Notes under the pieces: model-generated
Told to the model about the DNA's origin: nothing
What the model saw: the letters and a program-made list of their open reading frames with translations, nothing else
Databases searched by the model: none
Translations under genes and position numbers: made by a program
Source: Paracoccus sp. TOH
GTDB lineage: Bacteria; Pseudomonadota; Alphaproteobacteria; Rhodobacterales; Rhodobacteraceae
Direction: 5' to 3'
DNA length: 64,000 nt
NCBI RefSeq assembly: GCF_030388245.1
Contig: NZ_CP098362.1
Coordinates: 1 to 64,000 of the forward strand
In this document: positions 34,363-53,812 of the stretch, piece after piece
How the letters are laid out: every line of letters starts with the position of its first letter
Numbering within the stretch: the stretch's first letter is position 1

Positions 34363-36405
34363 TCACTTGCCGGCAAGCACCTTGGCCCGCGCGACGATGG
34401 CTTCTTTGGTGATGCCGAACTCCTGATAGAGCCGGTCGATCGGGGCCGAGGCGCCGAAGCCGGTCATGCCGATCACGTCGTCCTCGCTGGCGACATAGCG
34501 GGTCCAGCCGAACTTGCCCGCCGCCTCGACGGCGATGCGGGGCGCGTCGCCCAGCGTTTCCTTGCGATAGGATTCCGGCTGGGCGTCGAACAGCTCCCAC
34601 GAGGGCATCGAGACCACGGCGACCGACAGCCCGTCCGCGTGCAGCGCCTGCGCCGCCTCGACGGCGATGGCGACCTCGGTGCCGGTGGCGATCAGCGTCA
34701 CGTCGCGGCCCCCGTCATCCTTGGCACCGAACCGGCGCAGCACATAGGCGCCCTTGGCAGTCAGGTTCTCGGCGCCCGCGTCCAGACGCAGTTGCGGCAC
34801 GTCCTGCCGCGACAGCGCCAGCAGCGAGGGCACATGCCGGTTGCGGATGGCGATGTCCCAGGCCTCCAGCGTCTCGACCGTATCGGCCGGGCGCAGCACG
34901 GTCAGGCCGGGAATGGCGCGCAGGCTGGCCAGATGCTCGATCGGCTGGTGGGTCGGGCCGTCCTCGCCCAGGCCGATGCTGTCATGGGTCATGACATAGA
35001 CCGTGCCCACCCCCATCAGCGCCGACAGCCGGATGGCGTTGCGGGCATAGTCCGAGAACACCAGGAAAGTGCCGCCATAGGCGATGAAGCCGCCATGCAG
35101 GTTGATGCCGTTCATCGCCGCGGCCATGCCGAATTCGCGCACGCCGTAGCCGATATAGCGGCCGGGCGCCTCGCGGGTATATTGGCTGTCCACCGCCGGC
35201 ACCCGGGTCAGGTTCGAGCCGGTCAGGTCGGCCGAACCGCCGATCATCTCGGGCAGCGCCGGGGTCAGGGCCTCCAGCGCCATCTGGCTGGCCTTGCGGG
35301 TCGCAGCCTTTTTCGGCGCGGCGAAAAGCTGGGCGCGGGCGTCCTGCAAGGTCGGCTCGTAATCGCCGGGCAAGGCGCCGGCCTGGCGGCGGTCGAACTC
35401 GGCGCGGGTCTCGGCCGGTGTCGCGGCCAGGCGGGCTTGCCAGTCGGCGCGGGCCTGGGCGCCGCGTTGGCCGATCTCGCGCCATTCTGCCGCCAGATCC
35501 CCGGGGATGACAAAGGGCTCGGCCGACCAGCCGATGGCTTCCTTGGTCAGCGCCGCCTCGTCCTTGCCCAACGGCGAGCCGTGCACGGCATAGCTGCCGG
35601 CCTTGTTGGGCGAGCCGAAGCCAATGACGGTTTTCATCGCGATCAGCGAGGGCTTGCCGGTTTCGGCCTTGGCGGCGGTGATGGCGGCGTCGAGCGCCTT
35701 GCCGTCATGGCCGTCGCAGGACTGGACGTGCCAGCCCATGGCCTCGAACCGGGCCGGGACGTTTTCCGAGAAGCTGACCGAGGTCGGCCCGTCGATGGTG
35801 ATCGAGTTATCGTCGTAAAGCACGATCAGCTTGCCCAGGCCCAGATGGCCGGCCAGGCTGGCGGCCTCTTGCCCGATGCCCTCTTGCAGGCAGCCGTCGC
35901 CCAGCATGACCCAGGTGTGATGATCGACCAGGTCGGTGCCGAATTCGGCGGCCAGCCGGCGCTCGGCCAGGGCCATGCCGACGGCGGTGGCAAGCCCCTG
36001 CCCCAGCGGGCCGGTGGTGGTCTCGATCCCCTTGGCATGGCCGTATTCCGGGTGGCCCGCCGTGATCGCGCCCCATTGCCGGAAGTTGCGGATCTGCTCG
36101 ATGGTCATGTCCTCGTAGCCGGTCAGGTGCAGCACGCTGTAGAGCAGCATCGAGGCATGGCCGTTCGACAGCACGAAGCGGTCGCGATCCGGCCAGTCGG
36201 GGTGTTTCGCATCGAATTTCAAGTGCTTGGAGAACAGCACCGCCGCGGCATCGGCCATGCCCATCGGCGCGCCGGGATGGCCGGAATTGGCGGCGTTCAC
36301 CGCGTCGATGGACAGCGCGCGGATGCAATTCGCCAGCGCGAAATTCGCGGGGTCGAGCGCCGCCTTGGCGGCAATCGCGGGGTCTTTGGGGATGTCAAAA
36401 GGCAT
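34363..36405 (-). CDS. tkt: Transketolase
   Basis: A 680-residue enzyme of standard length. It has the SGHPGAPMGMA start, the thiamine diphosphate motif GDGCLQEGIGQEAASLAGHLGLG (from about residue 155) and HDSIGLGEDGPTHQPIEHL in the second domain. It moves two-carbon units between sugar phosphates. It is divergent from the deoR-tpi-rpiB-fbp-fba genes, so it likely belongs to the tetritol island. There it can use D-erythrose-4-phosphate with xylulose-5-phosphate, or split sedoheptulose-7-phosphate. Confidence 0.93.
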   Translation of the reverse strand: MPFDIPKDPAIAAKAALDPANFALANCIRALSIDAVNAANSGHPGAPMGMADAAAVLFSKHLKFDAKHPDWPDRDRFVLSNGHASMLLYSVLHLTGYEDMTIEQIRNFRQWGAITAGHPEYGHAKGIETTTGPLGQGLATAVGMALAERRLAAEFGTDLVDHHTWVMLGDGCLQEGIGQEAASLAGHLGLGKLIVLYDDNSITIDGPTSVSFSENVPARFEAMGWHVQSCDGHDGKALDAAITAAKAETGKPSLIAMKTVIGFGSPNKAGSYAVHGSPLGKDEAALTKEAIGWSAEPFVIPGDLAAEWREIGQRGAQARADWQARLAATPAETRAEFDRRQAGALPGDYEPTLQDARAQLFAAPKKAATRKASQMALEALTPALPEMIGGSADLTGSNLTRVPAVDSQYTREAPGRYIGYGVREFGMAAAMNGINLHGGFIAYGGTFLVFSDYARNAIRLSALMGVGTVYVMTHDSIGLGEDGPTHQPIEHLASLRAIPGLTVLRPADTVETLEAWDIAIRNRHVPSLLALSRQDVPQLRLDAGAENLTAKGAYVLRRFGAKDDGGRDVTLIATGTEVAIAVEAAQALHADGLSVAVVSMPSWELFDAQPESYRKETLGDAPRIAVEAAGKFGWTRYVASEDDVIGMTGFGASAPIDRLYQEFGITKEAIVARAKVLAGK

Positions 36406-36555
36406 GTTCGGTCCTCCGTTTGCCCCTCAGATACTGCGCGGCGGCAAAAATAACAATCAAAAATCACAAAGTCACATAATTGATGTTGTGTTTGCGTGAA
36501 GTATTGTTAGAAAAGTATCGGGCCGCGGCGAATCCGGGCGCAGGGAGGGATGTTC
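36406..36555. promoter_or_regulatory. AT-rich divergent promoter region of tkt and the deoR operon
   Basis: This 150-bp gap is far richer in A+T than the genes around it, especially 36445-36510. It contains AACAAT at 36452-36457 and ATTGTT at 36503-36508 as an outer inverted pair, and CACA-N10-TGTG in between. These are plausible DeoR-type binding elements, but no single site is decisive. Confidence 0.5.
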
Positions 36556-37329
36556 GTGAAACGCGAAGAACGCAGGCAAGCCATCATGGATCTGCTGGTC
36601 GCGACGCGCGCCGTCGATCTGGACGATCTGGCCGAGCGTTTCGCGGTCTCGAAGATGACCATCCACCGCGACCTGGACGACCTGGAACAGGCCGGGCTGC
36701 TGCGCAAGGTGCGCGGCGGCGCGACCATCGAGGCCGGGACGCAGTTCGAAAGCGATTTCCGCATCCGGGCCCTGCAGGATTCCGACGCCAAGGCCCGCAT
36801 GGCCCGCGCCGCGCTGGACCTGGTCGAGCCGGGCATGACCGTGATGGTCAATGACGGCTCGATGGCGGCGCTGCTGGGCGCCAGCCTGGCCGAGAAGGCG
36901 CCGCTGACGGTGATCACCAACAACGCGGCGGTGATCGAGCCGCTGAAGGACATGGCGCGGATCACGCTGATCGCGCTCGGCGGCATCTTCAGCGCCAAGT
37001 TCAACGGCTTCTTCGGGCTGGTGACGGAAAATGCCCTAAGCCGGCTGCGGGCGGACCTGGCCTTCATCTCGGCCCCCGCCGTGTCCGGCCTGCAGGCCTT
37101 TCACATGGACGATGCGGTGATCCGGGCCAAGCGCGCCATGATGCTTGCCGCCGGGCGCAGCGTGCTGCTGGTCAACCACCGCCGCTTCGGCCGTTCGGCG
37201 CTGCATGCGCTGGCCGATCTGTCCGAGTACCAGGCGATCATCACCGATGCCGCCCCCGACCCCGAGGACCGCGCCGCGCTGGACCGCGCGGGCATTCCCC
37301 TGACCATTGCCAAGCATTCTGACCGTTAG
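36556..37329 (+). CDS. DeoR family regulator of the tetritol island
   Basis: A 257-residue DeoR repressor. The N-terminal helix-turn-helix reads [26 protein letters not shown], and the sugar-phosphate sensor domain begins near residue 75. I start at the GTG at 36556 because the GGGAGGG ribosome site ends six bases before it; the in-frame ATG at 36550 touches that site and would be too close. In rhizobial and Brucella erythritol loci a deoR gene heads the tpi-rpiB genes, as here. It lies nine bases before eryH. Likely effector: a tetrose or tetrulose phosphate (inference). Confidence 0.85.
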
Positions 37330-37338
37330 GACGACGAC

Positions 37339-38112
37339 ATGACCGAATTCTGGATCGGCACCAGCTGGAAGATGAACAAGACCCTGGCCGAGGCGCGCGC
37401 CTTTGCCAAGGGACTGGCCGCCGCCGATGCCGCGCGCGCGCCGCGCATCCAGCGCTTCGTGATCCCGCCCTTTACCGCCGTGCGCGAGGTCAAGGCGATG
37501 CTGGCCGAAACCTCGGTCAAGGTCGGCGCGCAGAACATGCATTGGGCCGACGAAGGCGCCTGGACGGGCGAGATCAGCCCGCTGATGCTGCGCGACTGCA
37601 ACCTCGACATCGTCGAACTGGGACACAGCGAGCGCCGCGAGCATTTCGGCGAAACGGACGAGACCGTGGGCCTCAAGACCGAGGCCGCCGTGCGCCACGG
37701 CCTGATCCCGCTGATCTGCATCGGCGAGACGCTGGCCGAACGCGAATCCGGCCGCGCCCGCGCGGTGCTGGAGACCCAGGTGCGCGGCGCGCTGGCCAGG
37801 CTCTCGGCCGAGCAGAAATCGGCGCCGATCCTGCTGGCTTACGAGCCGGTCTGGGCCATCGGCGTGAACGGCATCCCCGCGACGTCGGACTATGCCGATG
37901 CGCGGCAGGCCGAGATCATCGCGGTGGCGCAGGACGTGCTGTCGCGCCGCATCCCCTGCCTCTATGGCGGCTCGGTCAACCCCGGCAATTGCGCGGAACT
38001 GATCGCCTGCCCGCATATCGACGGGCTTTTCATCGGTCGCTCGGCCTGGAACGTCGAGGGCTATCTGGACATCCTGGCGCGCTGCGCCGCAACCATCGGA
38101 GACACGAAATGA
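37339..38112 (+). CDS. eryH: Triosephosphate isomerase-like L-erythrulose-4-phosphate isomerase (EryH type)
   Basis: A 257-residue TIM-barrel isomerase with all catalytic groups: Lys in GTSWKMNK near residue 13, His in ELGHSERR near 98, Glu in AYEPVWAIG near 172, and the phosphate loop GGSVNPGN. In Brucella the second TIM homologue EryH (TpiA2; LerI in other work) converts L-erythrulose-4-phosphate to D-erythrulose-4-phosphate. I assign that role from the neighbouring rpiB and eryABCD; ordinary triosephosphate isomerase activity is the alternative. It overlaps eryI by 4 nt. Confidence 0.87.
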
Positions 38113-38573
38113 AACTGGCAATCGCAGGCGACAGCGCGGGCGAAGGGCTGGCCAAGCTGCTGGCCGACCACCTCAAGGACAAGCACGAGGTTTCCGAGAT
38201 CAGCCGCACCGAGGCCGGCGCGGATGCCTTCTATGCCGATCTCTCGGACCGCGTGGCGAACGGGGTGCTGGATGGCACCTATGACCGCGCCATCCTGGTC
38301 TGCGGCACCGGCATCGGCGTCTGCATCGCCGCGAACAAGGTGCCGGGCATCCGCGCCGCCCTGACCCATGACACCTATTCGGCGACGCGCGCGGCGCTGT
38401 CGAACAACGCCCAGATCATCACCATGGGCGCGCGGGTGATCGGCACCGAACTGGCCAAGGCCATCGCCGACGCCTGGCTGGCCGAGACGATGAACTTCGA
38501 CCCGAACGGCCGCTCGGCCGGCAATGTCTGCGCCATTGACGAAGTGGACGCGAAATACAACAAGGCCGGCTGA
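38109..38573 (+). CDS. eryI: RpiB-type isomerase, D-erythrulose-4-phosphate to D-erythrose-4-phosphate (EryI type)
   Basis: A 154-residue RpiB/LacAB-family isomerase. It has [13 protein letters not shown] with the catalytic Cys, [13 protein letters not shown], and the [14 protein letters not shown] segment. In Brucella EryI (DerI elsewhere) makes D-erythrose-4-phosphate, the end product of the erythritol pathway. It could also act on ribose-5-phosphate. The ATG overlaps the stop of eryH by 4 nt, so the two isomerases are coupled. Confidence 0.87.
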
Positions 38574-38594
38574 GCCCGCACGCAAAGGCCCGCC

Positions 38595-39572
38595 ATGCTG
38601 AAACTGCCGAACGACGGCCCCGCCACCGGCCGCCCGCTTTCCGACGTGCTGGCGGGCGACGGCCCCGCCGCCATCACCCTTGCGATTGCCCGGGCCCAGC
38701 CGGCGCTGGCCGCACGGCTGGCCGCCGGCCGGCTGCATGGCGACCCCGAGGCCGTGATCGGCACCAATGACAGCGGCGACAAGCAGAAGGCGCTGGATGT
38801 CGCCGCCCATCACCACATGCTGGAGGCGCTGGCCGCCGCCGGCGTCGGCCGGGTGCTCTCCGAAGAGGCCGAGGAAGTCGTCACCCTGAACCCGGGCGGC
38901 GCCTGGGACGTGGCGATGGACCCGATCGACGGCTCGGGCAGCATCGGCATCGGCGCGCCGCTGGGCATGCTCTACTCCATCCTGCCCGCCGCGCCCGAAG
39001 GCTTCCTGCGCAAGGGCCGGGCCGTGGTCGGCGCCGGCTACGCGAGCTTCGGCCATTCGCTGGATTTCGGCTGGTCGCTGGGCGACGGCACCCATGTCGC
39101 CGGCTATGATGCCGAGGCGGGCCAGTTCCGCCTGACCCGCGAGCGCGTGCAGCTGAAACCCACCGCCTCGACCATCGCCTATAACGCCTCGAACGAACGC
39201 CACTGGTCGCCGGGCCTGCAGGCCTGGGTGCAGGAACTGCGCCAGGGCAAGGACGGCCCGCGCGGGCGCGACTTCAACATGCGCTGGCTCGCCGCCGCCG
39301 TCGGCGAATTGCACCGCATCCTGCTGAAGGGCGGCGCCTTCCTCTATCCCGCCGACCGCCGCCCGGGCTACGAGAACGGCCGGCTGCGACTGATCTACGA
39401 ATGCTGCCCGATCGCCTTCCTGGTCGAGCAGGCCGGCGGCATCGCCTCGGACGGGTGCCAGCCGATCCTCGACCGCCAACCGCAGGGGCTGCACGAGATG
39501 GTGCCGCTGTTCTTCGGCGCCCGCGAGGAAGTCGAAACCATCCTGTCCCATCTCGCCATCAGCAAAGGATAA
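38595..39572 (+). CDS. fbp: Class I fructose-1,6-bisphosphatase
   Basis: A 325-residue class I bisphosphatase. It has the metal-binding SEEAEEV and MDPIDGSGSIGIGAPLGMLYS motifs and the C-terminal YECCPIAFLVEQAGG. It removes the C1 phosphate from fructose-1,6-bisphosphate. Bacterial Calvin-cycle relatives also use sedoheptulose-1,7-bisphosphate, which would suit tetrose metabolism. It lies 21 bases after eryI and 6 before fba, with an upstream ribosome site. Confidence 0.9.
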   Translation: MLKLPNDGPATGRPLSDVLAGDGPAAITLAIARAQPALAARLAAGRLHGDPEAVIGTNDSGDKQKALDVAAHHHMLEALAAAGVGRVLSEEAEEVVTLNPGGAWDVAMDPIDGSGSIGIGAPLGMLYSILPAAPEGFLRKGRAVVGAGYASFGHSLDFGWSLGDGTHVAGYDAEAGQFRLTRERVQLKPTASTIAYNASNERHWSPGLQAWVQELRQGKDGPRGRDFNMRWLAAAVGELHRILLKGGAFLYPADRRPGYENGRLRLIYECCPIAFLVEQAGGIASDGCQPILDRQPQGLHEMVPLFFGAREEVETILSHLAISKG

Positions 39573-39578
39573 CAGCCC

Positions 39579-40619
39579 ATGGCCATGATCACGCTGCGCC
39601 AGCTTCTCGACCATGCGGCCGAGAACGGCTATGCCGTTCCCGCCTTCAACATCAACAACATGGAGCAGGGGCTGGCGGTGATGAACGCCGCCGCGGCGAC
39701 CGACAGCCCGGTGATCCTGCAGGCCAGCCGCGGCGCGCGCGCCTATGCCAACGACGCCGTGCTGGCCGGGCTGATCCAGGGCCTGTCGCGCGCCTTCCCG
39801 GACATCCCGCTGTGCATGCACCTGGACCACGGCAACGGGCTTGCGACCTGCGCCACGGCGATCCAGAACGGCTTCACCAGCGTGATGATGGACGGCTCGC
39901 TGCAGGCCGACGGCAAGACGCCCGCTGATTACGCCTATAACCGCGACATCACCGCCCGCGTGGTCGAGATGGCCCATGCCTGCGGCGTCTCGGTCGAGGG
40001 CGAGCTGGGCGTGCTGGGCAGCCTGGAAACCGGCATGGGCGACCAGGAGGACGGCCACGGCGCCGAGGGCCGGCTCTCCGAGGACCAGTTGCTGACCGAC
40101 CCGGCCGAGGCCGAACAATTCGTGAAGGACACCGGCGTCGATGCGCTGGCCGTCGCCATGGGCACCAGCCACGGCGCCTACAAGTTCACCCGCAAACCCG
40201 ACGGCGCCATCCTCGCCATGCATGTGATCGAGGAGATCCACCGCCGCCTGCCGAACACGCATCTGGTCATGCATGGCTCCAGCTCGGTGCCCGAGGATCT
40301 GCAGCAGATCATCAACGCCTATGGCGGCGACATCCGGCCAACCTGGGGCGTGCCGGTCGAGGAAATCCAGCGCGGCATCAAATCGGGCGTGCGCAAGGTC
40401 AATATCGACACCGACAACCGGCTGGCGATGACCGCCGCGATCCGCAGGAAGCTCAGCGAGGAACCGGCCGAGTTCGACCCGCGCGGCTATCTGAAACCCG
40501 CCATGGCGATGATGTCCGAGGTCTGCAAGGCGCGTTTCGAGGCCTTCGGCACCGCCGGCCATGCCGCGAAGATCCGCCCGCTGCCGCTGGCGGCGATGGC
40601 GAAACGCTACGCCGCCTGA
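39579..40619 (+). CDS. fba: Class II fructose-bisphosphate aldolase (CbbA/Fba type)
   Basis: A 346-residue zinc aldolase. It has the FNINNMEQ start, HLDHGNG with a zinc-binding His, the [19 protein letters not shown] loop, and HGSSSVP with a further metal-binding His. The Calvin-type aldolases of this branch join dihydroxyacetone phosphate with glyceraldehyde-3-phosphate or with erythrose-4-phosphate. It is the last gene of the deoR-eryH-eryI-fbp-fba unit and is followed by two hairpins. Confidence 0.92.
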
Positions 40620-40625
40620 ACGGTT

Positions 40626-40645
40626 GCCGGGCGCGGGCGCCCGGC
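40626..40645. terminator. Hairpin 1 between fba and eryD
   Basis: A perfect 9-bp stem GCCGGGCGC/GCGCCCGGC with a 2-base loop, a few bases after the fba stop. The loop is too tight to form fully, so the effective stem is shorter. Confidence 0.5.
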
Positions 40646-40659
40646 CCAGCGGCAGCGTT

Positions 40660-40682
40660 CGGGACGAGCCCCGCTCGTCCCG
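40660..40682. terminator. Hairpin 2 between fba and eryD
   Basis: A perfect 9-bp stem CGGGACGAG/CTCGTCCCG with a 5-base loop, in the gap between two convergent operons. It probably ends transcripts from both sides. Confidence 0.65.
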
Positions 40683-40694
40683 TTCCCCCCGCCG

Positions 40695-41645
40695 TCAGTC
40701 CGCCAACAGCCGCGCCGTGGCCTCGTCGGTGATCAGTCCCGACAGACGCCGGCTTTCCAGCACCGCCCGGATCGCCCGCACCTTGTCGGTGCCGCCGGCA
40801 ATGGCGACGATCCGGCTGCCCTCGGGCCCGTCCAGGCTGACCGACAGCGTGCGCGCGCTCAGGGTGGTTTCCAGCACCCGGCCCCGGGCGTCGAAGAAAT
40901 GGCCCAGCATCTCGCCCTGCGCGCCGGCGGCGTTGATCTCGGCGATCTCATGCGGCTCGATCATGCCCGAGGCGACCAGTTGCGCCCCGGCATCCGCCGT
41001 GCCGATGCCGACCACCTTCAGGCTGGCGCCGTTCGAAAGGTCGAACAGTTCGCGCACCCCCGGCTGGGCCAGCAACACCGCCAGATCCTGTTCGGAATTG
41101 GCGAAGAACGGCACCGGCAGCACATAGGATTGCGCGCCGGTCTTCTGCGCCAGCGCATACATCACGTCATGCGGGTTGGTGGCATAGCTGCGGGTGAAGC
41201 CGCCCAGCAGCGACACGAAGCGCACCCCGTTCGCGTCGAAACGCGGCAACTGGTGCACCGCCGCCGCCAGCGTGCGGCCATGGCCAAGACCGATCACCGG
41301 ATCTTCGCCGCGCTCGATCTCGCGCCGCAGGAAGCCCGCCCCGGCCAGACCCAGCGCGCGCAGCGGCATCCCCTCCTCGCCCAGTTCGGGCGCCACCTCG
41401 CAATAGTCCAGCCCGTAGCGGGCGCAAAGCCGATCCTCGAGCGCGGCGCATTCCACGATCTCGCCGTCGATCGAGACCTTGACCACGCCCTCGGCCACCG
41501 CGCGGGCGATCAGCCGATGCGCCTTGACCGAGGGCACGCCCAACCGTTTCGCCACCGCCGCCTGCGTCAGCCCGCCGGCGTAATGCAACCAGGCCGCGCG
41601 GATGGCGAGGCTTTGTTCCGGGTCCAAGGCTCCGCGCCGCGCCAT
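40695..41645 (-). CDS. eryD: EryD-like regulator, SorC/DeoR sugar-binding family
   Basis: A 316-residue regulator. It has an N-terminal helix-turn-helix (YAGGLTQAAVAKRLGVPSVKAHRLI) and a SorC-type sugar-binding domain with VRFVSLLGGF, LPVPFFANSEQD and VVGIGTADAG. It is the last gene of a minus-strand eryA-eryB-eryC-eryD series, the same order as the Brucella eryABCD operon, whose EryD represses until erythritol is present. The start is uncertain: the ATG at 41645 has no clear ribosome site, and an in-frame TTG at 41663 is the other option. Confidence 0.88.
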   Translation of the reverse strand: MARRGALDPEQSLAIRAAWLHYAGGLTQAAVAKRLGVPSVKAHRLIARAVAEGVVKVSIDGEIVECAALEDRLCARYGLDYCEVAPELGEEGMPLRALGLAGAGFLRREIERGEDPVIGLGHGRTLAAAVHQLPRFDANGVRFVSLLGGFTRSYATNPHDVMYALAQKTGAQSYVLPVPFFANSEQDLAVLLAQPGVRELFDLSNGASLKVVGIGTADAGAQLVASGMIEPHEIAEINAAGAQGEMLGHFFDARGRVLETTLSARTLSVSLDGPEGSRIVAIAGGTDKVRAIRAVLESRRLSGLITDEATARLLAD

Positions 41646-41715
41646 CAGGCGGGCCGGCGGCAAGGGGGGCGGGGCTGGCGGGTCATGCGGGCGTCCTTTT
41701 CGGGGTGTTCCGGGG

Positions 41716-42648: not shown

Positions 42649-42655
42649 GGTGTCC

Positions 42656-44173: not shown

Positions 44174-44174
44174 T

Positions 44175-45737: not shown

Positions 45738-46173
45738 GGCATGCCGTCCTGCGGGGGTCGGTGGGATGGTGATGCATGGTTGCCCTCCTCCGCCCAAGCC
45801 ACGGCCCGGGCGGCAAGCCAGCCCGGACGGGCGTGGCGAACTCCTCGGTCATTTTCATACCGCAGATTTTCGAGTTCGGGAATGCATTTTTTTACGGACA
45901 TAGAAAAATATTTCAGTTACTGTTCTGGAGACGGCGGGATTCGGGCGATGCGACCCCAAGCCCCCGAGACGGAGGAAAGCCCCGGCGCTCCAGATGCCCG
46001 GGCGGCATGACCAGCCAAAGGAGGGGCCGGAAAATGCAGGGAATTCTTCACGACAGGCTATGTGCCCAGCCCCATCCGACAGGCTGTCCCGGCCGCGATT
46101 CGACCGGCTGACCCGCGACCAGCCGCCCGGCGCAGGCGCCGGACCCGCAACATTCCATCATCGAGGCTTGAAC
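45738..46173. promoter_or_regulatory. 436-bp divergent control region between eryA and the transporter operon
   Basis: The part from about 45845 to 45930 is clearly AT-rich and probably holds both promoters. It contains ATTTTT at 45886-45891 and AAAAAT at 45904-45909 as an inverted pair with 12 bases between, a candidate EryD operator. The stretch 45738-45840 leading to eryA is GC-rich with no gene I can support. The stretch towards 46173 holds a short leader reading frame, described separately. Confidence 0.5.
46034..46111 (+). CDS. Possible 25-residue leader peptide ahead of the transporter operon
   Basis: A short frame starting at an ATG nine bases after an excellent AAAGGAGG ribosome site (46017-46024). 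It reads MQGILHDRL and continues to a TGA at 46109-46111, 62 bases before the DUF2291 gene. The peptide matches no family I know. Its Cys, His and Pro content is not obviously that of an amino-acid attenuator. It could be a translated leader, or the ribosome site could be fortuitous. Confidence 0.4.
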   Translation: MQGILHDRLCAQPHPTGCPGRDSTG

Positions 46174-46839
46174 ATGGTCCAGAGCACTGCCCCGACCGGC
46201 TCCGCCCCCAAGGCCCCCGCGGCATCGCGGCGCGGGCTCATCCTCAGCATCGCCGCGGCGGCCGTCGTGCTGGCCGGCATCGCGCTTGACACCAAGGTCG
46301 TGCATATCGGCTCGGACGCCGACGTGCGCCAGCAGGCCTTCTCGCCCGACGGCTACGGCCAGACCGAGTTCCCGCGCATCCGCGACGCCGTGACGGCCAA
46401 GGCCGGCGACGCCGCCGAAGTCGCCGCCGCCATCGCCGCCGACAAGGACGCGGCCATCGCGAAATACGGCACCCCGGCCTCGACCGGCGCCATCATGGCG
46501 GTGCGCGTGACCGGCACGGCGGGCGAGCCCAAGGCCGGGATCTATCCGCTGGCGGTCGAGGGTCTGCCCGAAGGCGTCGCCGTCCGCGTCCAGACCGGCC
46601 CGGCGATCAACGGCACCGACCTGCGCGACGCGCCCGGCGACATCGCCTTCGGCAAGTTCAAGAACCAGATCGAGTACCAGAACGCCGGCGCCGGCATCAA
46701 CCGCGCCATGAAGGCCGAGGTGCTGGACAAGATCGACGCCGCGAACCTGACCGGCAAGACCGTCGAGGTCGTGGGCGCCTTCCGCCTGATCAATCCCAAG
46801 AACTGGCTGATCACCCCGGTCGAGGTCAGCGTCAAATGA
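46174..46839 (+). CDS. DUF2291 family membrane-anchored protein of the transporter operon
   Basis: A 221-residue protein. One hydrophobic helix (about residues 27-45) is followed by a periplasmic domain with HIGSDADVRQQAFSPDGYGQTEFPRI and GAIMAVRVTG segments. The family is described as predicted lipoproteins and accompanies sugar ABC transporters of polyol loci in rhizobia. I see no lipobox Cys, so this copy is probably held by the helix. The ATG at 46174 has a GAGG site. The ATPase gene overlaps it by 4 nt. Its role is unknown; a periplasmic accessory of uptake is plausible. Confidence 0.8.
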   Translation: MVQSTAPTGSAPKAPAASRRGLILSIAAAAVVLAGIALDTKVVHIGSDADVRQQAFSPDGYGQTEFPRIRDAVTAKAGDAAEVAAAIAADKDAAIAKYGTPASTGAIMAVRVTGTAGEPKAGIYPLAVEGLPEGVAVRVQTGPAINGTDLRDAPGDIAFGKFKNQIEYQNAGAGINRAMKAEVLDKIDAANLTGKTVEVVGAFRLINPKNWLITPVEVSVK

Positions 46840-48368
46840 GCAAGATCCTCTCCGGCAAGCCCGATACGGCCGAGGTGGTGCTGGCCGCCCGCAACGTCGC
46901 CAAGTCCTATGGCAGCGTCCATGCGCTGAAGGGCGTGAATTTCGACATCCATCGCGGTCAGGTGACGACCTTGTTCGGCGAGAACGGCGCCGGCAAGTCC
47001 ACGCTGATGAAGATCCTGTCGGGCGTCATCCAGCCCACCACCGGCGAGATCATCCTGGACGGCCAGCCCGTGACCTTTGCCAGCGCCAACGAGGCGCGCG
47101 ACCGCGGCATCTCGATCATCCACCAGGAGCTGAGCCTGGCCCCGAACCTGTCGGTGCGCGACAATATCTTCATGGGCCGCGAGATCATGGGCCCGACCGG
47201 CGTCGATTTCGCCGAGGAGGAACGCCAGGTCCGCCGCCTGATGGAAGAGCTGGAGGAGGACATCGACCCGCTGACCCCGGTTGAGGAGCTGCGCCTGGGC
47301 CAGCAGCAGATCGTCGAGATCGCCCGCGCGCTGTCGGTGGACAGCCGCATCCTGATCATGGACGAGCCGACCAGCGCGCTTTCGGCCAGCGAGGTCGAGG
47401 TGCTGTTCAAGGTGATCCGCGACCTGACCGCCAAGGGCGTCAGCATCGTCTATATCTCGCACCACCTGGAGGAGGCGCTGACCATCACCGACCATGCGGT
47501 GGTGCTGCGCGACGGCACCATGACCGCCTATGCGCCGCGCGCCGAGATCGACCTGGAATGGATCGTGCGCAACATGGTCGGCGACAATTACGACCTGGGC
47601 GCGCCGCCCGCGACCCGCATGGGCGAGGTGGCGCTGTCGATCCGCAATCTTTCGGTGCCCGACCCGGCCGGCTTCAACCTGGTGGACAAGCTGTCCCTGG
47701 ACGTCCGCGCGGGCGAGATCGTCTGCATCTACGGCCTCATGGGCGCCGGCCGCACCGAGCTTCTGGAAACCTGCGCCGGCCGGCTGACCGCCTCGGGCGG
47801 CGAGATCGTGCTGGAGGGCCGCGAGATCTCGCACCTGTCGATCGCCGAACGCATCGCGCGCGGCCTCGCGCTGGTGCCCGAGGACCGGCAGCGCGACGGC
47901 CTCGTGCAGACCATGACCGTGGGCGAGAACCTGTCCCTGGCCTCGATCGGCCGCTTCACGCGGGGGCTGTTCACCAGCCGCAGCGCCGAGAAGAAGCTGA
48001 TCCAGGACAGCATCCGCGAAGTCACCGTCAAGACCTCGGGCGGCCATGCCGCCATCGGCTCGCTCTCGGGCGGCAACCAGCAAAAGGTCGTCATCGGCAA
48101 GATGCTGGCGACCCGGCCCAGGGTCATCATGCTGGACGAGCCCTCGCGCGGCATCGACATCGGCGCCAAGGCCGAGGTGTTCCGACTGCTGGCCGAGGGC
48201 GCGAAACAGGGCCTCGCCGTGATCTATTCCACGTCCGAGGTCAGCGAATGCCTGTCCATCGCGCACCGGATCATCGTCATGCACAAGGGCCGCATCTCGG
48301 CCGAGTTCGATTCCACCGTCACCAAGGAAAAGATCATGGCCGCCTCGGGCGAGTCCGTGGCTGCCTGA
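46836..48368 (+). CDS. Sugar ABC transporter ATPase with two ABC domains (RbsA/MglA type; EryE/F/G-like system)
   Basis: A 510-residue protein. The first domain has Walker A GENGAGKST near 49, signature LRLGQQQIVEIARAL and Walker B LIMDEPTSAL. The second domain has a degenerate Walker A (GLMGAGRTE), signature LSGGNQQKV and MLDEPSRGIDIGAK, as is usual for this family. It drives uptake through the permease encoded next. The divergent eryABCD operon points to erythritol or a related polyol as substrate. Confidence 0.92.
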   Translation: MSKILSGKPDTAEVVLAARNVAKSYGSVHALKGVNFDIHRGQVTTLFGENGAGKSTLMKILSGVIQPTTGEIILDGQPVTFASANEARDRGISIIHQELSLAPNLSVRDNIFMGREIMGPTGVDFAEEERQVRRLMEELEEDIDPLTPVEELRLGQQQIVEIARALSVDSRILIMDEPTSALSASEVEVLFKVIRDLTAKGVSIVYISHHLEEALTITDHAVVLRDGTMTAYAPRAEIDLEWIVRNMVGDNYDLGAPPATRMGEVALSIRNLSVPDPAGFNLVDKLSLDVRAGEIVCIYGLMGAGRTELLETCAGRLTASGGEIVLEGREISHLSIAERIARGLALVPEDRQRDGLVQTMTVGENLSLASIGRFTRGLFTSRSAEKKLIQDSIREVTVKTSGGHAAIGSLSGGNQQKVVIGKMLATRPRVIMLDEPSRGIDIGAKAEVFRLLAEGAKQGLAVIYSTSEVSECLSIAHRIIVMHKGRISAEFDSTVTKEKIMAASGESVAA

Positions 48369-48393
48369 CGGATCATGTGAGGGAGGAAAACCC

Positions 48394-49434
48394 ATGTCTG
48401 CCACGACCGCAACCCCGGCTCCGGCCAAGAAGGGCGACTTCAGCCTGGGCCGCATCCTGCTTCAGGGCCGGGCCTTCTTCGCGCTGATCCTCATCATCGC
48501 GGTGTTCTCGTTCCTGTCGCCCAATTATTTCACCCTGTCGAACTTCCTGATCATGTCCAGCCAGGTCGCCATCTACGGCATCCTGTCGGTCGGCATGCTG
48601 CTGGTGATCCTGAACGGCGGCATCGACCTGTCGGTCGGCTCGATCCTGGCGCTGTGCGGCGTGGTCGCCGGCGCGATGATGCAGGGGGTCGAGCTGGACT
48701 GGGCCGGGGTGATCCTTTACCCGCCGGTCTGGGCGGTGGTGGTGCTGACCGTCACCGTGGGCGCGGCGGTGGGGGCGCTGAACGGGGTGCTGATCTCGAT
48801 CTTCAAGGTGCCGCCCTTCGTCGCCACGCTGGGGGTGATGTATGTCGCGCGCGGCGTCGCCCTGCTGATGACCAACGGGCTGACCTACAACAACCTGCGC
48901 GGCAATCCGGACCTCGGCAATACCGGCTTCAGCTGGCTGGGCTTCAACCGCATCGCCGGCATCCCGATCTCGGTCATCGTGCTGGCGACCGTCGCCGTGC
49001 TGGCGGGGCTGATGCTGTCGCGCTCGGCCTTCGGGCGCTGGCTCTATGCCTCGGGCGGCAACGAGCGCGCGGCCGAACTGTCGGGCGTGCCGACCCGGCG
49101 CGTCAAGATCGCCGTCTACACCATCTCGGGCGCCCTGGCGGCGATTGCCGGGCTGGTGCTCAGCTCGCAGCTGACCTCGGCCGGGCCGACCGCCGGCACC
49201 ACCTATGAGCTGACCGCCATCGCGGCGGTGGTGATCGGCGGCGCTGCCCTGACCGGCGGGCGCGGCACGGTGCGCGGCACCATGCTGGGCGCCTTCGTCA
49301 TCGGCTTCCTGTCGGCGGGCCTCGTCATCATCGGCGTCAGCTCCTACTGGCAGACCGTGTTCACCGGCGCGGTGATCGTGCTCGCCGTGCTGATGAACTC
49401 GATCCAATACGGGCGCGGCACCCGCAAGGGCTGA
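48394..49434 (+). CDS. Sugar ABC transporter permease (RbsC type)
   Basis: A 346-residue permease with about ten helices. It has the RbsC-type motifs LNGGIDLSVGSILALCGVV and VAAVVIGGAALTGGRGTVRG near the C-terminus, which forms the ATPase contact region. It starts 25 bases after the ATPase gene with a GAGGGAGGA ribosome site. It forms the inner-membrane channel for the polyol. Confidence 0.92.
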   Translation: MSATTATPAPAKKGDFSLGRILLQGRAFFALILIIAVFSFLSPNYFTLSNFLIMSSQVAIYGILSVGMLLVILNGGIDLSVGSILALCGVVAGAMMQGVELDWAGVILYPPVWAVVVLTVTVGAAVGALNGVLISIFKVPPFVATLGVMYVARGVALLMTNGLTYNNLRGNPDLGNTGFSWLGFNRIAGIPISVIVLATVAVLAGLMLSRSAFGRWLYASGGNERAAELSGVPTRRVKIAVYTISGALAAIAGLVLSSQLTSAGPTAGTTYELTAIAAVVIGGAALTGGRGTVRGTMLGAFVIGFLSAGLVIIGVSSYWQTVFTGAVIVLAVLMNSIQYGRGTRKG

Positions 49435-49521
49435 CCCCGCCGGACCTTCCCGCCGGGCGGAACACCCGCCCGGCGAAAGCCTGCCGCAGGGCAGTGAACC
49501 AACCCCAAGGGAGTGAGACCC

Positions 49522-50469
49522 ATGTTCAAAATGACCCGCCGCGCGCTGCTTGCCGCCGCTGCCTCGATTCCGCTGATGGCGGCTGCGGCATCGGCCGAGG
49601 GGCTGATCACCATCATCGTCAACGACCCCGCGAACCCCTATTGGTTCACCGAGGGCGAGGTCGCCAAGAAAACCGCCGAGGAGCTGGGCTATACCGCCAA
49701 CGTGGCCGCGCATCGCGGCGACACCAACACCGAAAGCACGCTGATCGACACCGCGATCACCAACAAGTCGGTGGCGATCATCCTGGACCCGGCCAATGCC
49801 GACGGCTCGGTCGGTGCGGTGCAGAAGGCCGTGGCCGCGAACATCCCGGTGATCCTGGTCAATGCCGAGATCAACCAGGAAGGGCTGGCCAAGGCGCAGC
49901 TCGTCTCGAACAACGCGCAGGGCGCGGCTCTGGGCGCCCAGGCCTGGGTCGAGACCGTGGGCGACAAGGGCAAATATGTGGAACTGTTCGGCGCGCCCTC
50001 GGACAACAACGCCCAGACCCGCTCGAACGGCTTCGAGACCGTACTGAGCCAGTATCCCGACCTGCAGAAGGTGGGCCAGGAGGTCGCGAACTGGGACCGC
50101 ACCCAAGGCTATCAGAAAATGCAGTCGCTGTTGCAGGCGAATCCGGACATCAACGGCGTGATCTCGGGCAATGACGAGATGGCGCTGGGGGCCATCGCCG
50201 CGCTGAAGGAAGCCGGCAAGCTGGACGCGGTGAAGGTCGGCGGTTTCGACGGCTCGCCCGACGCGGTCGAGGCGGTCAAGGCCGGCGAGCTGCAATACAC
50301 CGTGCTGCAGCCGGTGGCGATCTTCTCGGCCGAGGCGGTCAAGCAGGCCGATGCCGTCATCAAGACCGGCAAGACCGGGGTGGATACCGAAAAGCAGCTC
50401 TTCGACTGCTTCCTGATCACCAAGGACAACGCGGACAAATACACCGCCCCCTTCGTACTGGAACAATAA
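49522..50469 (+). CDS. Periplasmic sugar-binding protein (RbsB/peripla_BP_4 type)
   Basis: A 315-residue binding protein. A Sec signal peptide (MTRRALLAAAASIPLMAAAASA) ends near residue 26. The mature domain begins LITIIVNDPANPYWFTEGEV and has GDTNTESTLID, ILDPANADGSVGAV and ISGNDEMALGA in the ribose-binding pattern. I start at the ATG at 49522, eight bases after AAGGGAG; a GTG at 49513 overlaps that ribosome site. It captures the polyol for the permease. A GC-rich hairpin follows the gene. Confidence 0.92.
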   Translation: MFKMTRRALLAAAASIPLMAAAASAEGLITIIVNDPANPYWFTEGEVAKKTAEELGYTANVAAHRGDTNTESTLIDTAITNKSVAIILDPANADGSVGAVQKAVAANIPVILVNAEINQEGLAKAQLVSNNAQGAALGAQAWVETVGDKGKYVELFGAPSDNNAQTRSNGFETVLSQYPDLQKVGQEVANWDRTQGYQKMQSLLQANPDINGVISGNDEMALGAIAALKEAGKLDAVKVGGFDGSPDAVEAVKAGELQYTVLQPVAIFSAEAVKQADAVIKTGKTGVDTEKQLFDCFLITKDNADKYTAPFVLEQ

Positions 50470-50477
50470 GAACAGCG

Positions 50478-50503
50478 GGCGCGCGGCCCTGCCGCCGCGC
50501 GCC
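50478..50503 (+). terminator. Hairpin after the binding-protein gene
   Basis: A perfect 9-bp stem GGCGCGCGG/CCGCGCGCC with an 8-base loop, eight bases after the stop. There is no T-run. Such hairpins after binding-protein genes often stabilise the upstream mRNA and reduce expression of the next genes, here the second kinase and dehydrogenase. Confidence 0.6.
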
Positions 50504-50575
50504 TCCGTCCGCCTTCTGCCCCTGCCGGCCCGGCCGCGACAGCGCCGGGCGCGATCACATCATCCGGGACCGCCC

Positions 50576-52099
50576 ATGCCCCTGCTGCTTGGCATCGACA
50601 ACGGACTGACCGTCACCAAGGCGGTGATCTTCGACGAAACCGGGCGGGTGCTGGCCGTGGCGCGGCGGCGCGTGCCGCAACTGATGCCGCGCCCGCGCCA
50701 TGTCGAACGCGACATGGACCTGCTCTGGACCCAGACCGCCGCCGCCATCGCCGAGGCGGTCGCCGCCTGCGGCCGGCCGGCCGGCGCCATCGCCGCCGTG
50801 GCGGCGACGGCGCATGGCGACGGCGTCTATGTGCTGGACGGCGACGCCCACCCGCTGGGCCATGGCATCCTGTCGCTGGACAGCCGCGCCGGCGCGGTTG
50901 TCGCCGGTTGGCAGGCCGATGGCACCGCCGAACGCGCGCTGCTGCGGACCGGGCAGACGCCGCATGCCTCGGCCCCCTCGGCGCTGCTGGCCTGGATGCG
51001 CGACCACGAGCCCGAACGGTTTGCCCGCATCGCGCATGTGCTGGCCTGCAAGGACTGGCTGCGCTTTTGCCTGACCGGCCGCATCGCCACCGACCTGACC
51101 GAGGCCAGCACCTCCTTCACCGATGTCGCGACCCAGCGCTACGCGCCCGACATCCTGCCGCTGTTCGGGCTTCAGCCGCTGGCCGGGACGCTGCCGTCGA
51201 TCCTGCCGCCCGGCGCCGTCGCCGGCCATGTCACCCCCGAGGCCGCCGCGGCGACCGGCCTTGTCGCCGGCACGCCCGTCGCTGCCGGTCTGCACGACGT
51301 CACCGCCTCGGCGCTTGGCGCCGGCGGCCACACGCCCGGCACCGTCGCCATCGTCGCCGGCACCTATTCGATCAACGAGACCATCTCGGCCGTGCCCAGG
51401 GTCGATCCGCGCTGGTTCTGCCGCAACGGGCTGGAGCCCGGCGAGTGGAACGCCATGTCGATCTCGCCCGCATCGGCAGCGAATTACGACTGGTTCCTCG
51501 ACACGCTCTGCGGGGCCGAGCGCCGCGCGGCCGAGGCCGAGAGCCGCGCCTTCCACGCCGAAATCATCCCCGAGATCGAGGCCGCCATGGCCCGTCCCTC
51601 GACCGCGCTTTTCCATCCGTTCCTGTTCGGCTCACCGCTGGGCCCCACGGCCAGCGCCGGCTTCTTCGGGCTGCGCGGCTGGCAGGATCGCGGCGACCTG
51701 CTGCGCGCGGTGATCGAGGGCATCGCCTTCAACCACCGCATCCATGTCGATGCCCTGCGCGAGGGGTTTCAGCCGACCGAGGCTCGACTGACCGGAGGAA
51801 TATCCCGCAGTCCCTTGTTCGCACAGCTTTTTGCCGATGCTTTGGGAATGCCGGTCAGCACCTCGGACACCGACGAGGCCGCCGCCTGGGGCGCGGCGCT
51901 TTGCGCCGGCGCGGCGGTCGGGCTTTACCAGAGCCCGCGCCACGATCCGCGCGACATGGCGGCGCTGATCCGCTGCCATCGTCCCGAACCCGGGCGCAGC
52001 GCCGCGCTGGCCCAGCGTTATGCGCTGTTCACCGACCTGACCCTGGCCCTCGCCCCGCTCTGGCCGCGGATCGAGGCGCTGGCCCCGAACGAAGGCTAG
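50576..52099 (+). CDS. Second FGGY-family polyol/sugar kinase of the island
   Basis: A 507-residue kinase, distinct from EryA. Its N-terminus reads LGIDNGLTVTKAVIFDETG and a VAATAHGDGVYVLD segment follows. The second domain has VAGTYSINE and LTGGISRSPLFAQLFADALGMPV. The GDGVYVLD and CKDWLRF positions match those of EryA, so it is related but diverged. It is placed with the transporter genes and three bases before a second GlpD-like gene. The substrate is unknown: another tetritol (threitol) or a pentitol is plausible, as is erythritol itself. Confidence 0.85.
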   Translation: MPLLLGIDNGLTVTKAVIFDETGRVLAVARRRVPQLMPRPRHVERDMDLLWTQTAAAIAEAVAACGRPAGAIAAVAATAHGDGVYVLDGDAHPLGHGILSLDSRAGAVVAGWQADGTAERALLRTGQTPHASAPSALLAWMRDHEPERFARIAHVLACKDWLRFCLTGRIATDLTEASTSFTDVATQRYAPDILPLFGLQPLAGTLPSILPPGAVAGHVTPEAAAATGLVAGTPVAAGLHDVTASALGAGGHTPGTVAIVAGTYSINETISAVPRVDPRWFCRNGLEPGEWNAMSISPASAANYDWFLDTLCGAERRAAEAESRAFHAEIIPEIEAAMARPSTALFHPFLFGSPLGPTASAGFFGLRGWQDRGDLLRAVIEGIAFNHRIHVDALREGFQPTEARLTGGISRSPLFAQLFADALGMPVSTSDTDEAAAWGAALCAGAAVGLYQSPRHDPRDMAALIRCHRPEPGRSAALAQRYALFTDLTLALAPLWPRIEALAPNEG

Positions 52100-52102
52100 G
52101 AC

Positions 52103-53812
52103 ATGACCCAAGACATCGACGTGCTGATCCTGGGCGCCGGGGTGAACGGCGCCGGGCTGTTTCGCGATCTGTGCGAACAGGGCGTGACCTGCGTGATCGC
52201 GGACAAGGGCGATTTCGGCGGCGGCACCTCGGCAGCGCCGTCGCGGCTGATCCATGGCGGCATCAAATACCTGGAAACCGGCGAATTGCGGCTGGTCGCG
52301 CAATCGACGCTGGAGCGCAACCTGCTCTTGAAGAACGCTCCGCATCTGGTGCGGCCGCTGCCGACGGTGATCCCGATCTTTTCCTGGCTCCGGGGCATTC
52401 CCGCCGCCTTGCGCACGCTTTTCGGCTCGACCACCGCGCCCCGCAGCCGCGGCGCGGTGCTGATGAAGATCGGCCTGGCCATGTATGATTTCTACGGCCG
52501 CCGCCACCGGGTCATGCCGCGCCATCAACTGTGGTCGCGGGCGCGGGCGCTGCGCGAGATCCCGCCGCTGACCCCGCGCATCGTCGCCGCCGGGCAATAT
52601 TACGACGCCACGGTGACCCAGCCCGAGCGGCTGGTCTGGGAACTGATCGCCGACGGGCTGCGCGCCAACCCGGCCAGCCGTGCGCTGAACCACACGGCCA
52701 TTGTCGGCACGGACGGCGACGCCGTGACGCTCGGCACGTCCCAGGGCCCGCTGGCCCTGCGCCCGCGCATCGTCGTCAATGCCGGCGGCCCCTGGATCGA
52801 CCGGATCAACGCCCGGCTCGGCGCGCCCTCGACGCTGATCGGCGGCACCAAGGGCTCGCATATCCTGCTGGACCACCCCGGGCTGCTGGCGGCGCTGAAG
52901 GGCCGGATGATCTATTTCGAGGCCGATGACGGCCGCATCTGCCTGGTCTTCGACTATCTGGGCCGGGCGCTGGTCGGCTCGACCGACATCCGCGCCGACG
53001 ACCCGGACGAGGTCGCCTGCGAGGATGCCGAGATCGACTATTTCATCGCCGCGTTGCAGGGCCTGCTGCCGGGCCTGCAGTTCGATCGCGGCCAGATCGT
53101 CTATGCCTATTCCGGCATCCGTCCCCTGCCCGCCTCGGACGGCACCGCGCCGGGGCTGATCAGCCGCGACCATTCCGCCCCGGTGGCCGAGCCCGGGGGC
53201 GCGCGGCGCTGGCCGATCATCTCGCTGGTGGGCGGCAAATGGACCACCTTTCGCGGCTTTGCCGAAGAGGTCGCCGATACGGTGCTGGCCCGGCTTGGCC
53301 GGGCGCGGCGGATCGGCACGCAGGCGCTGCCCATCGGCGGCGGCCGCGACCTGCCGCGGGTTCCGGCGGCGCGACAGGGCTGGATCGCCCGCGTCGCCGC
53401 CGCCACCGGCGCCCGTCCCGGGCGCGCCGCGCTGCTGCTGGATCGCTACGGCAGCACCGCCGGACCGATCCTGACCGCCGAAGGGCCGGCGCCGGAATTG
53501 CTGCAGGACGCGCCGGAATACAGCCTGGCCGAGTTCGACTGGCTGATCCGGCACGAAAGCGTGGTTCACCTGGCCGATCTGGTCATGCGCCGCAGCGCCA
53601 TCGCCGTCACCGGGCGGCTGTCCGGGCGCGACCTGGACGCCATCGCCGGTCGATGCGCCGCCGCGCTTGGCTGGGACAGCATCCGGCAGGCGGCGGAACT
53701 GGCGCAAACCGAAGCGCTGCTGACCCGGCGGCACCGTCTCCGACTGCTGGCCGAGGCCGGGCCTTCCCCGCCGCCGCGTGCCGGGCTAGCTTGCGCGGAT
53801 GGGCCAGAATGA
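52103..53812 (+). CDS. Second FAD-dependent polyol-phosphate dehydrogenase, GlpD family
   Basis: A 569-residue enzyme. It has the LILGAGVNGAGLFRDLCEQG FAD loop, a GGGTSAAPSRLIHGGIKYLE signature where GlpD and EryB have SSRSxKLxHGGLRYLE, and a C-terminal domain of about 170 residues that is longer than that of EryB. It begins three bases after the second kinase stop, so the pair is co-translated. By analogy with EryA-EryB it should oxidise the phosphorylated product of that kinase. Glycerol-3-phosphate is the alternative substrate, but no glycerol gene is nearby. Confidence 0.85.
   Translation: MTQDIDVLILGAGVNGAGLFRDLCEQGVTCVIADKGDFGGGTSAAPSRLIHGGIKYLETGELRLVAQSTLERNLLLKNAPHLVRPLPTVIPIFSWLRGIPAALRTLFGSTTAPRSRGAVLMKIGLAMYDFYGRRHRVMPRHQLWSRARALREIPPLTPRIVAAGQYYDATVTQPERLVWELIADGLRANPASRALNHTAIVGTDGDAVTLGTSQGPLALRPRIVVNAGGPWIDRINARLGAPSTLIGGTKGSHILLDHPGLLAALKGRMIYFEADDGRICLVFDYLGRALVGSTDIRADDPDEVACEDAEIDYFIAALQGLLPGLQFDRGQIVYAYSGIRPLPASDGTAPGLISRDHSAPVAEPGGARRWPIISLVGGKWTTFRGFAEEVADTVLARLGRARRIGTQALPIGGGRDLPRVPAARQGWIARVAAATGARPGRAALLLDRYGSTAGPILTAEGPAPELLQDAPEYSLAEFDWLIRHESVVHLADLVMRRSAIAVTGRLSGRDLDAIAGRCAAALGWDSIRQAAELAQTEALLTRRHRLRLLAEAGPSPPPRAGLACADGPE

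Follow-up and report, generated by a model that had tools for sequence, protein, structure and literature searches.

Gene content of the erythritol island

The window, a 64-kb stretch at the start of contig C3 (653,516 bases) in the 4.5-Mb genome of Paracoccus sp. TOH, carries an island of erythritol (ery) gene orthologues, at the right end of which lies a second kinase-dehydrogenase pair, kin2-fad2, that is the main subject of this analysis. We listed the genes from open frames, coding-frame guanine-plus-cytosine (GC) statistics, and family scans, and took the likely true starts of EryA, EryB, EryC, and a lipoprotein from frames and alignments. An initial annotation of this DNA had outlined a complete erythritol catabolic island whose coordinates (34363 to 53812) take in kin2-fad2 (50576 to 53812); its text leaves the pair unmentioned.

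At the left end, a transketolase gene (tkt, 34363 to 36405; TIGR00232, 832 bits versus a cutoff of 682) reads leftward on the minus strand; its product is 58% identical to another transketolase of the genome, and the gene is also present in the ery loci L112-L114. Five genes then read rightward on the plus strand: eryR, for a DeoR-family regulator (36550 to 37329; DeoRC/HTH_DeoR, 68% identical to R. leguminosarum deoR1); eryH (tpiB/tpiA2-like, 37339 to 38112), for a triosephosphate isomerase (TIM)-family protein and putative L-erythrulose-1-phosphate isomerase; eryI (rpiB-like, 38109 to 38573; NF051858, 249.4 bits versus 240), for D-erythrulose-4-phosphate isomerase; fbp, for a class 1 fructose-bisphosphatase (38595 to 39572; NF006780, 358.6 bits versus 358); and fba, for a class II fructose-bisphosphate aldolase (39579 to 40619; TIGR01521, 601 bits versus 496). 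On the minus strand follow eryD, for a SorC/DeoR-type sugar-binding repressor (40695 to 41663; PF04198); eryC, for a xylose-isomerase-like TIM barrel protein, the erythrulose-1-phosphate epimerase/racemase (41716 to about 42648, open frame to 42699; PF01261); eryB, for a GlpD-like erythritol-phosphate dehydrogenase named by family and orthology (42656 to 44173, open frame to 44269); and eryA, for an FGGY-family erythritol kinase named by family, tree, and identity (44175 to 45737, open frame to 45797).

Divergent from eryA and on the plus strand, the transporter operon begins with a DUF2291 lipoprotein gene (about 46174 to 46839, open frame from 45994; PF10054) and continues with the EryEFG set, which comprises a CUT2-type sugar ATP-binding cassette (ABC) transporter ATPase (46836 to 48368), a permease (48394 to 49434; PF02653), and a periplasmic substrate-binding protein (49513 to 50469; PF13407). 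Behind these genes lie kin2 (50576 to 52099), encoding a second FGGY kinase and candidate tetritol kinase, called by family and by conservation in the 80 loci described below, and fad2 (52103 to 53812), encoding a second GlpD-like flavin adenine dinucleotide (FAD) dehydrogenase and candidate tetritol-phosphate dehydrogenase, called by family and by its place downstream of kin2. The order and strands given by the initial annotation (eryA-eryB-eryC-eryD on the minus strand, deoR-tpi-rpiB on the plus strand, a divergent sugar ABC transporter) agree with the open frames and family scans. Every island frame passed the coding-frame GC filter except rpiB (38109 to 38573), so that call rests on its family match.

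Measured against the locus on pR132501 of R. leguminosarum bv. trifolii WSM1325, identities are 72% for EryA, 83% for EryB, 86% for EryC, 68% for EryD, 68% for EryR, 83% for EryH, 83% for EryI, 83% for the binding protein, 80% for the ATPase, 77% for the permease, 55% for the lipoprotein, 65% for Kin2, 61% for Fad2, and 72% for Fba. The five enzyme steps, uptake, and two regulators that had been placed within the island are all represented by orthologues of R. leguminosarum or Brucella erythritol genes, and the central sugar-phosphate enzymes tkt, fbp, and fba all score over their family cutoffs, as given above. Names for two of the enzymes rest on orthology and gene order, because the NCBI models alone would call EryB a GlpD (862.9 bits versus 352, with a model that cannot tell the two apart) and EryH a triosephosphate isomerase (439.3 bits versus 293). 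A comparison by identity puts EryH nearer the R. leguminosarum copy (83%) than the second TIM of this genome, which is encoded on contig C1 (37%), and so did not bear out a grouping with housekeeping TpiA. The eryI product is the genome's only RpiB-family match. In a tree that took in no named reference xylulokinase or glycerol kinase, EryA groups with R. leguminosarum EryA in a clade of 23 members (100/100 support) that excludes Kin2 and the four further FGGY kinases of the genome, these last being long branches; EryA also scores far under the cutoffs for XylB (188.5 versus 380 bits) and GlpK (86.9 versus 590).

The erythritol pathway is used here in the form reportedly described by Barbier in 2014, as given in citing papers. 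By analogy with characterized orthologues, the EryEFG-type transporter would import the polyol, EryA would phosphorylate erythritol, EryB would oxidize the carbon next to the phosphate to give D-erythrulose-1-phosphate, EryC would convert this to L-erythrulose-1-phosphate, EryH would move the carbonyl to give D-erythrulose-4-phosphate, and EryI would form D-erythrose-4-phosphate, with EryD and EryR as the presumed regulators; the organism itself is predicted to grow on erythritol. The conversion of D- to L-erythrulose-1-phosphate by EryC, followed by LerI/DerI-type isomerases acting toward erythrose-4-phosphate, is published (PMC10733421).

Gene content, orthology, gene order, and co-occurrence are direct observations, and from them we judge the island quite probably to be a complete erythritol locus of the R. 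leguminosarum/Brucella type plus a second tetritol entry through kin2-fad2. As such it belongs to a known locus type, and a nonrhizobial host is nothing new, since erythritol loci of Roseobacter and Acidiphilium have been published (PMC3599248). The locus is shared with P. siganidrum and P. limosus, which fits the assignment to Paracoccus that the initial annotation had guessed.

Its nearest described counterparts are those on pRL12 of R. leguminosarum 3841 and pR132501 of WSM1325, which share eryABCD, EryR-EryH-EryI, the DUF2291-ABC transporter, kin2-fad2 (encoding WP_011648983 and WP_011648982 in strain 3841), and fba (61 to 86% identity, lipoprotein 55%). They differ from the island in an additional DeoR gene ahead of kin2, in a second ABC transporter on the far side of fba, in having deoR-tpi-rpiB on the same strand as eryABCD rather than on the opposite strand, and in lacking tkt and fbp within the stretches shown. 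The erythritol-induced B. abortus cluster (BAB2_0364-0378) likewise has fbp, fba, rpiB, tpiA2, deoR, eryDCBA, and the transporter, but there fbp-fba forms a separate unit and no tkt is among the genes given (PMC3522698). The polyol locus of S. meliloti (mptABCDE, lalA, rbtABC) shares eryABC, eryD, eryR, and tpiB but has another transporter and pentitol genes unlike any island gene by family name (PMC3599248); the 20 genes scanned at 31995 to 54191 all proved to be something other than MptABCDE, LalA, and Rbt genes. The M. smegmatis tetritol pathway (EltD, LerK, LerI, DerI) also takes L-threitol and erythritol to erythrose-4-phosphate via erythrulose phosphates (PMC10733421), but with oxidation before phosphorylation, whereas the island pairs a kinase with a subsequent GlpD-like enzyme.

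Conservation of kin2-fad2 and its association with ery genes

A scan for kin2, with one genome per species, returned 111 stretches with a relative, of which the best 80 were kept. All 80 loci have fad2 downstream of kin2 and on its strand. In 62 of them the gap is within 200 bases, and in the other 18 (L014, L016, L021, L063, and 14 others), some of which seem to hold three DeoR-type genes, a DeoR-family gene intervenes. The nearest tested gene upstream of kin2, in a count that left out DeoR matches under 60% identity, is the binding protein gene in 62 loci, eryI in 13, eryD in 1, and none in 4; kin2-fad2 thus stands directly behind eryH-eryI in 13 of 80 loci and directly behind eryC in none. 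Among the 62 transporter-linked loci, 52 have a further DeoR gene before kin2 and 10 have a short gap like that of the window, which has a DeoR gene neither there nor between kin2 and fad2.

Sequence of eryA, eryB, or eryC occurs in 75 of the 80 kin2 stretches, the others being L013, L020, L025, L055, and L074. L055 is a short contig on which transporter genes precede kin2, and the genomes of the remaining four have eryC elsewhere. In L013, L020, and L025, the ery locus is on another contig than kin2-fad2, and the 19 kb read of each contains the transporter, eryABCD, tkt, deoR-tpi-rpiB, fbp, and fba, with neither kin2 nor fad2 in those 19 kb; in L074, the contig start truncates kin2, and the 8.7-kb contig that bears eryC was read in part.

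Within a family sample of 248 genomes, kin2 orthologues (60% identity or more; scoring in this and the class sample was limited to the top 6 or 4 candidates of each genome) are present in 9 genomes and EryC in 14, and all 9 are among the 14 (Fisher P of 2e-13 with the window's own genome and 4e-12 without it, values that are only indicative because the genomes are related). A further 28 family genomes have weaker kin2-like kinases (32 to 40%), some of which are EryA itself. The closest organism-named match to kin2 is from Paracoccus aminovorans (91%). Beyond the family, the genus of a Brucella locus has kin2 in 32 of 35 genomes (one match partial), and three Brucella-genus stretches that were read show lipoprotein-ABC-deoR2-kin2-fad2 beside eryABC, with the matched frames free of stops.

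We regard it as highly unlikely that kin2-fad2 simply travels with a mobile erythritol locus as passive cargo, with no functional link to it. Such carriage would suit a locus that many hosts have on plasmids (136 plasmid records with EryC and 108 with kin2), whose gene trees do not track species (PMC3599248), and one kin2 of the family sample has an in-frame stop. Yet both frames are open in the three Brucella-genus genomes read, kin2 is kept across nearly all the genomes of that genus, the pair stays together in all 80 loci despite differing upstream neighbors, and it is retained in three genomes where it is unlinked from the ery genes.

Two other origins for the pair were considered and set aside. 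Kin2 is not a recent copy of EryA: the two form separate clades (100/100 and 99/99 support) at about 31% identity. A free-standing glycerol or xylulose system was also set aside, since no kin2 orthologue was found without EryC in the family sample. Kin2 scores under the cutoffs for XylB (221.3 versus 380 bits) and GlpK (127.2 versus 590), and the best Fad2 score against the NCBIfam GlpD model is 231 bits versus a cutoff of 360.

A candidate second tetritol entry

GlpD oxidizes the carbon next to the phosphate. By the same chemistry, Kin2 and Fad2 would form a second kinase-dehydrogenase entry that converts another tetritol to an erythrulose-1-phosphate for EryH and EryI, and the most likely substrate is L-threitol. 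We infer this role from homology, gene order, co-occurrence, and stereochemistry. By our own stereochemical derivation, GlpD-type oxidation of L-threitol 4-phosphate would give L-erythrulose-1-phosphate, the EryH substrate, so that Kin2, Fad2, EryH, and EryI would suffice without EryC, a route that matches the 13 loci with kin2-fad2 directly behind eryH-eryI. Entry of L-threitol as L-erythrulose-1-phosphate has precedent in the EltD and LerK route (PMC10733421). We tentatively propose, with confidence that stops a little short of even, that kin2-fad2 is an unrecognized kinase-first entry for L-threitol or another tetritol leading to EryH-EryI, which would make loci called erythritol-only general tetritol loci.

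The residues of Fad2 bear on which tetritol this might be. Using GlpD numbering from alignments of the Fad2 and EryB sets, Arg54 of GlpD is Lys in all 23 Fad2 proteins, whereas it is Arg in all 20 EryB rows that have a residue there (2 of 22 are gapped) and in the sister protein described below. H50, Y55, K230, H233, R317, R332, and K354, which we take to be likely active-site residues of GlpD, are unchanged in 23 of 23 Fad2 proteins. The Arg54 substitution could instead signal an enzyme of stereochemistry opposite to that of GlpD, acting on D-threitol or on the other end of erythritol with entry via EryC or EryH, and both of these would, by our derivation, also yield an erythrulose-1-phosphate. 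The constancy of the other GlpD positions and the placement of the pair right behind eryH-eryI in 13 loci and right behind eryC in none lead us to regard this alternative as unlikely.

A sister pair supports the logic by which a kinase and a GlpD-like enzyme would produce a 2-ketose-1-phosphate. Three genomes of a class sample (337 genomes) have a 42% relative of kin2 and no EryC found; in the two that were read, the operon (L128 1270-10654, and L129) consists of a CUT2-type transporter, a SorC-type regulator, a fad2-like gene (43%), an aldolase gene, and a kin2-like gene (41 to 42%), so that this pair, 41 to 43% identical to kin2-fad2, has a transporter of its own. The gene between the fad2-like and kin2-like genes of L128, when scanned, proved to be a class I DeoC/LacD-type aldolase. 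This order fits a path from polyol to polyol phosphate, 2-ketose-1-phosphate, and aldol cleavage, and in the ery loci kin2-fad2 adjoins erythrulose-phosphate isomerases instead of an aldolase.

Relatives of this kind also bring in the idea that the pair serves a differently sized polyol, be it a pentitol, glycerol, or a branched one, and has only the transporter in common with the erythritol genes. The FGGY and GlpD families are broad, relatives of kin2 stand beside a class I aldolase gene or, in Rubrobacter, beside dihydroxyacetone-kinase and phosphatase genes, and S. meliloti EryA also takes adonitol and L-arabitol (PMC3599248). We nevertheless find this explanation improbable, since an R. 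leguminosarum erythritol cosmid, which may or may not carry kin2-fad2, restored no adonitol or L-arabitol growth in S. meliloti (PMC3599248), no kin2 orthologue was found without EryC in the family sample, and Kin2 and Fad2 fall under the NCBI cutoffs for GlpK, XylB, and GlpD. The genome, moreover, has four other FGGY kinases besides EryA and Kin2, one of them presumably GlpK-like by a motif in its first residues.

Returning to kin2-fad2 as a second tetritol entry, several observations weigh against it. The invariant Lys at the Arg54 position weakens the stereochemical argument for L-threitol, and the extra DeoR genes found at kin2-fad2 in other genomes point to another inducer. Five of the 14 EryC-positive family genomes have no kin2 orthologue: G045 and G048 keep eryABCD and the transporter without kin2, G139 offers a short contig with eryA, eryB, and eryC and no kin2, and G009 and G215 have eryC-tpi-rpiB and neither eryA nor eryB in the 20 kb read. 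The pair is therefore not needed for the erythritol route. One of the nine kin2 genes, that of G253, has an in-frame TGA. In the class sample, kin2 and EryC orthologues are each confined to the window's own genome, so with 1 of 337 genomes EryC-positive the case for co-occurrence comes from the family sample and from the named loci, the latter having themselves been found with kin2. Finally, the published listing of the erythritol-induced B. abortus cluster ends at a DeoR gene and includes no kin2 or fad2 (PMC3522698), yet kin2 is present in the 32 Brucella-genus genomes counted above.

The literature searched, which mostly excluded subscription journals, yielded no description of kin2-fad2 function; the conserved pair was not found in print, and it probably feeds the same isomerases as the known erythritol genes. 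A 2013 survey that included WSM1325 places an aldolase gene next to rpiB in Brucella, has the eryEFG transcript open with a hypothetical gene, and does not expect R. leguminosarum-type loci to degrade further polyols; its available text, figures aside, does not mention a second kinase or dehydrogenase (PMC3599248). An Ochrobactrum cluster moved into Escherichia coli comprised ten genes, the pair not being among those given in the available account (PMC10190533), and the flavoproteome list for B. ovis has only GlpD and EryB in this subclass (PMC9045290). The idea that classical Brucella lack kin2-fad2 is countered by kin2 in 32 of 35 genomes of the genus, including some of 3.1 to 3.5 Mb (B. ovis itself was outside the comparison), and by an open fad2 frame in each of the three that were read.

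Taken by itself, the island adds only one more example to a known locus type; the gain lies in the unnamed pair, through which another four-carbon sugar alcohol may be able to enter the same pathway. The 2013 survey expected no breakdown of further polyols by R. leguminosarum-type loci (PMC3599248), yet these loci include a second kinase and dehydrogenase whose occurrence follows that of the pathway. Should a threitol be its substrate, the pair would define a kinase-first route to erythrose-4-phosphate, supply two enzymes for tetrose chemistry, and offer a ready way of testing which compounds other than erythritol these plant- and animal-associated bacteria consume. If the broader reading as a tetritol entry is true, the loci of R. 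leguminosarum and of much of the genus Brucella would be general tetritol loci, not erythritol-only ones.

Erythrose-4-phosphate disposal, regulation, and neighboring genes

Together, Fba, Fbp, and Tkt could carry erythrose-4-phosphate via sedoheptulose-1,7-bisphosphate into the pentose phosphate pathway, parallel to transaldolase. An Fba/Fbp bypass is published for Brucella (PMC11005471, PMC11508834), where growth on erythritol needs Tal or Fba with Fbp/Bbp and where Fbp acts on sedoheptulose-1,7-bisphosphate (PMC11005471). By analogy with these characterized orthologues, the island copies of fba, fbp, and tkt may act as such a bypass here, with the island fbp product in the role of sedoheptulose-bisphosphatase. 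Against this, the three could be Calvin-cycle or gluconeogenesis genes that are mere neighbors of the ery genes: another transketolase gene lies near the end of the same contig, and the genome has one transaldolase-family protein. We rate this as quite improbable, given that tkt, fba, and fbp are found again next to ery genes in three further Paracoccus loci and that all or some of them are present in Mameliella-type and other loci, and given that fbp-fba lies inside the erythritol-induced cluster of B. abortus (PMC3522698).

Six records have a TalC/fructose-6-phosphate-aldolase-type gene at the ery locus (L126 9486-10139; L073, L076, L080, L081, and L082), which would deal with erythrose-4-phosphate in another way than fba-fbp; the relative in the window's genome (65%) is on contig C1.

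The best solved relatives of the substrate-binding protein in the PDB are ribose-type by their depositors' names, so this comparison gave no ligand. Between eryA and the lipoprotein gene, at 45888 to 45909, a candidate regulatory box, TTTTTTACGGACATAGAAAAAT, occurs once in the window and in none of 100 shuffles. The core of the box recurs at that position in 4 of 21 relatives (L008, L010, L014, and L034), and the core pattern was not found in the other 17 examined. EryD as its binder is a guess. The published Ochrobactrum eryO site (PMC10190533) has no match in the window at up to 3 mismatches, and identity of the box with eryO was dropped: the best weak alignment of eryO in the window (18/29) has 4 bases in common with the box.

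Other gene arrangements were noted among the relatives. A lumazine synthase (RibH) gene, with no match in the window, recurs in the ery loci of 22 distinct records (among them L126 11302-11739; L017 13185-13604; L063 13949-14377), in positions such as the eryC-eryD interval or immediately past fad2; EryB and Fad2 are both of flavoenzyme families. L133 5751-12001 (G009) has genes for a GntR regulator, a metallo-lactamase-fold protein, a class II aldolase, and an FGGY kinase, then eryC-eryH-eryI, with no eryA or eryB in the stretch, perhaps reflecting another route into the same isomerases, and L136 2924-11077 (G215) has tkt, gap, and pgk, then tpi (eryH-like), rpiB, and eryC, all in one run and also with no eryA or eryB in the stretch. 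On plasmid 2 of Rubrobacter radiotolerans (L140), a 43% kin2 relative lies among other FGGY kinase genes, and its neighbors include a dihydroxyacetone-kinase-type gene, two HAD hydrolase genes, rpiB, tkt, and a glycerol-3-phosphate dehydrogenase/oxidase gene. The Brucella-genus loci L040, L041, L043, and L050 have a second CUT2-type transporter beyond fad2, with its own DUF2291 lipoprotein-like gene and 29 to 50% identity to the EryEFG set. A record titled Enemella evansiae (Actinomycetota; L075) contains an ery locus of the alphaproteobacterial kind, and its title looks wrong.

In the window's own genome, the sole RepC match is on another contig than that of the island. At the right edge of the island, a DUF4186 gene (53799-54191) overlaps the end of fad2; beside the left edge are a PACE-family efflux transporter gene and a divergent LysR regulator gene (32876-33340 and 33424-34329), the regulator having AceR as its top family match, under that family's cutoff.

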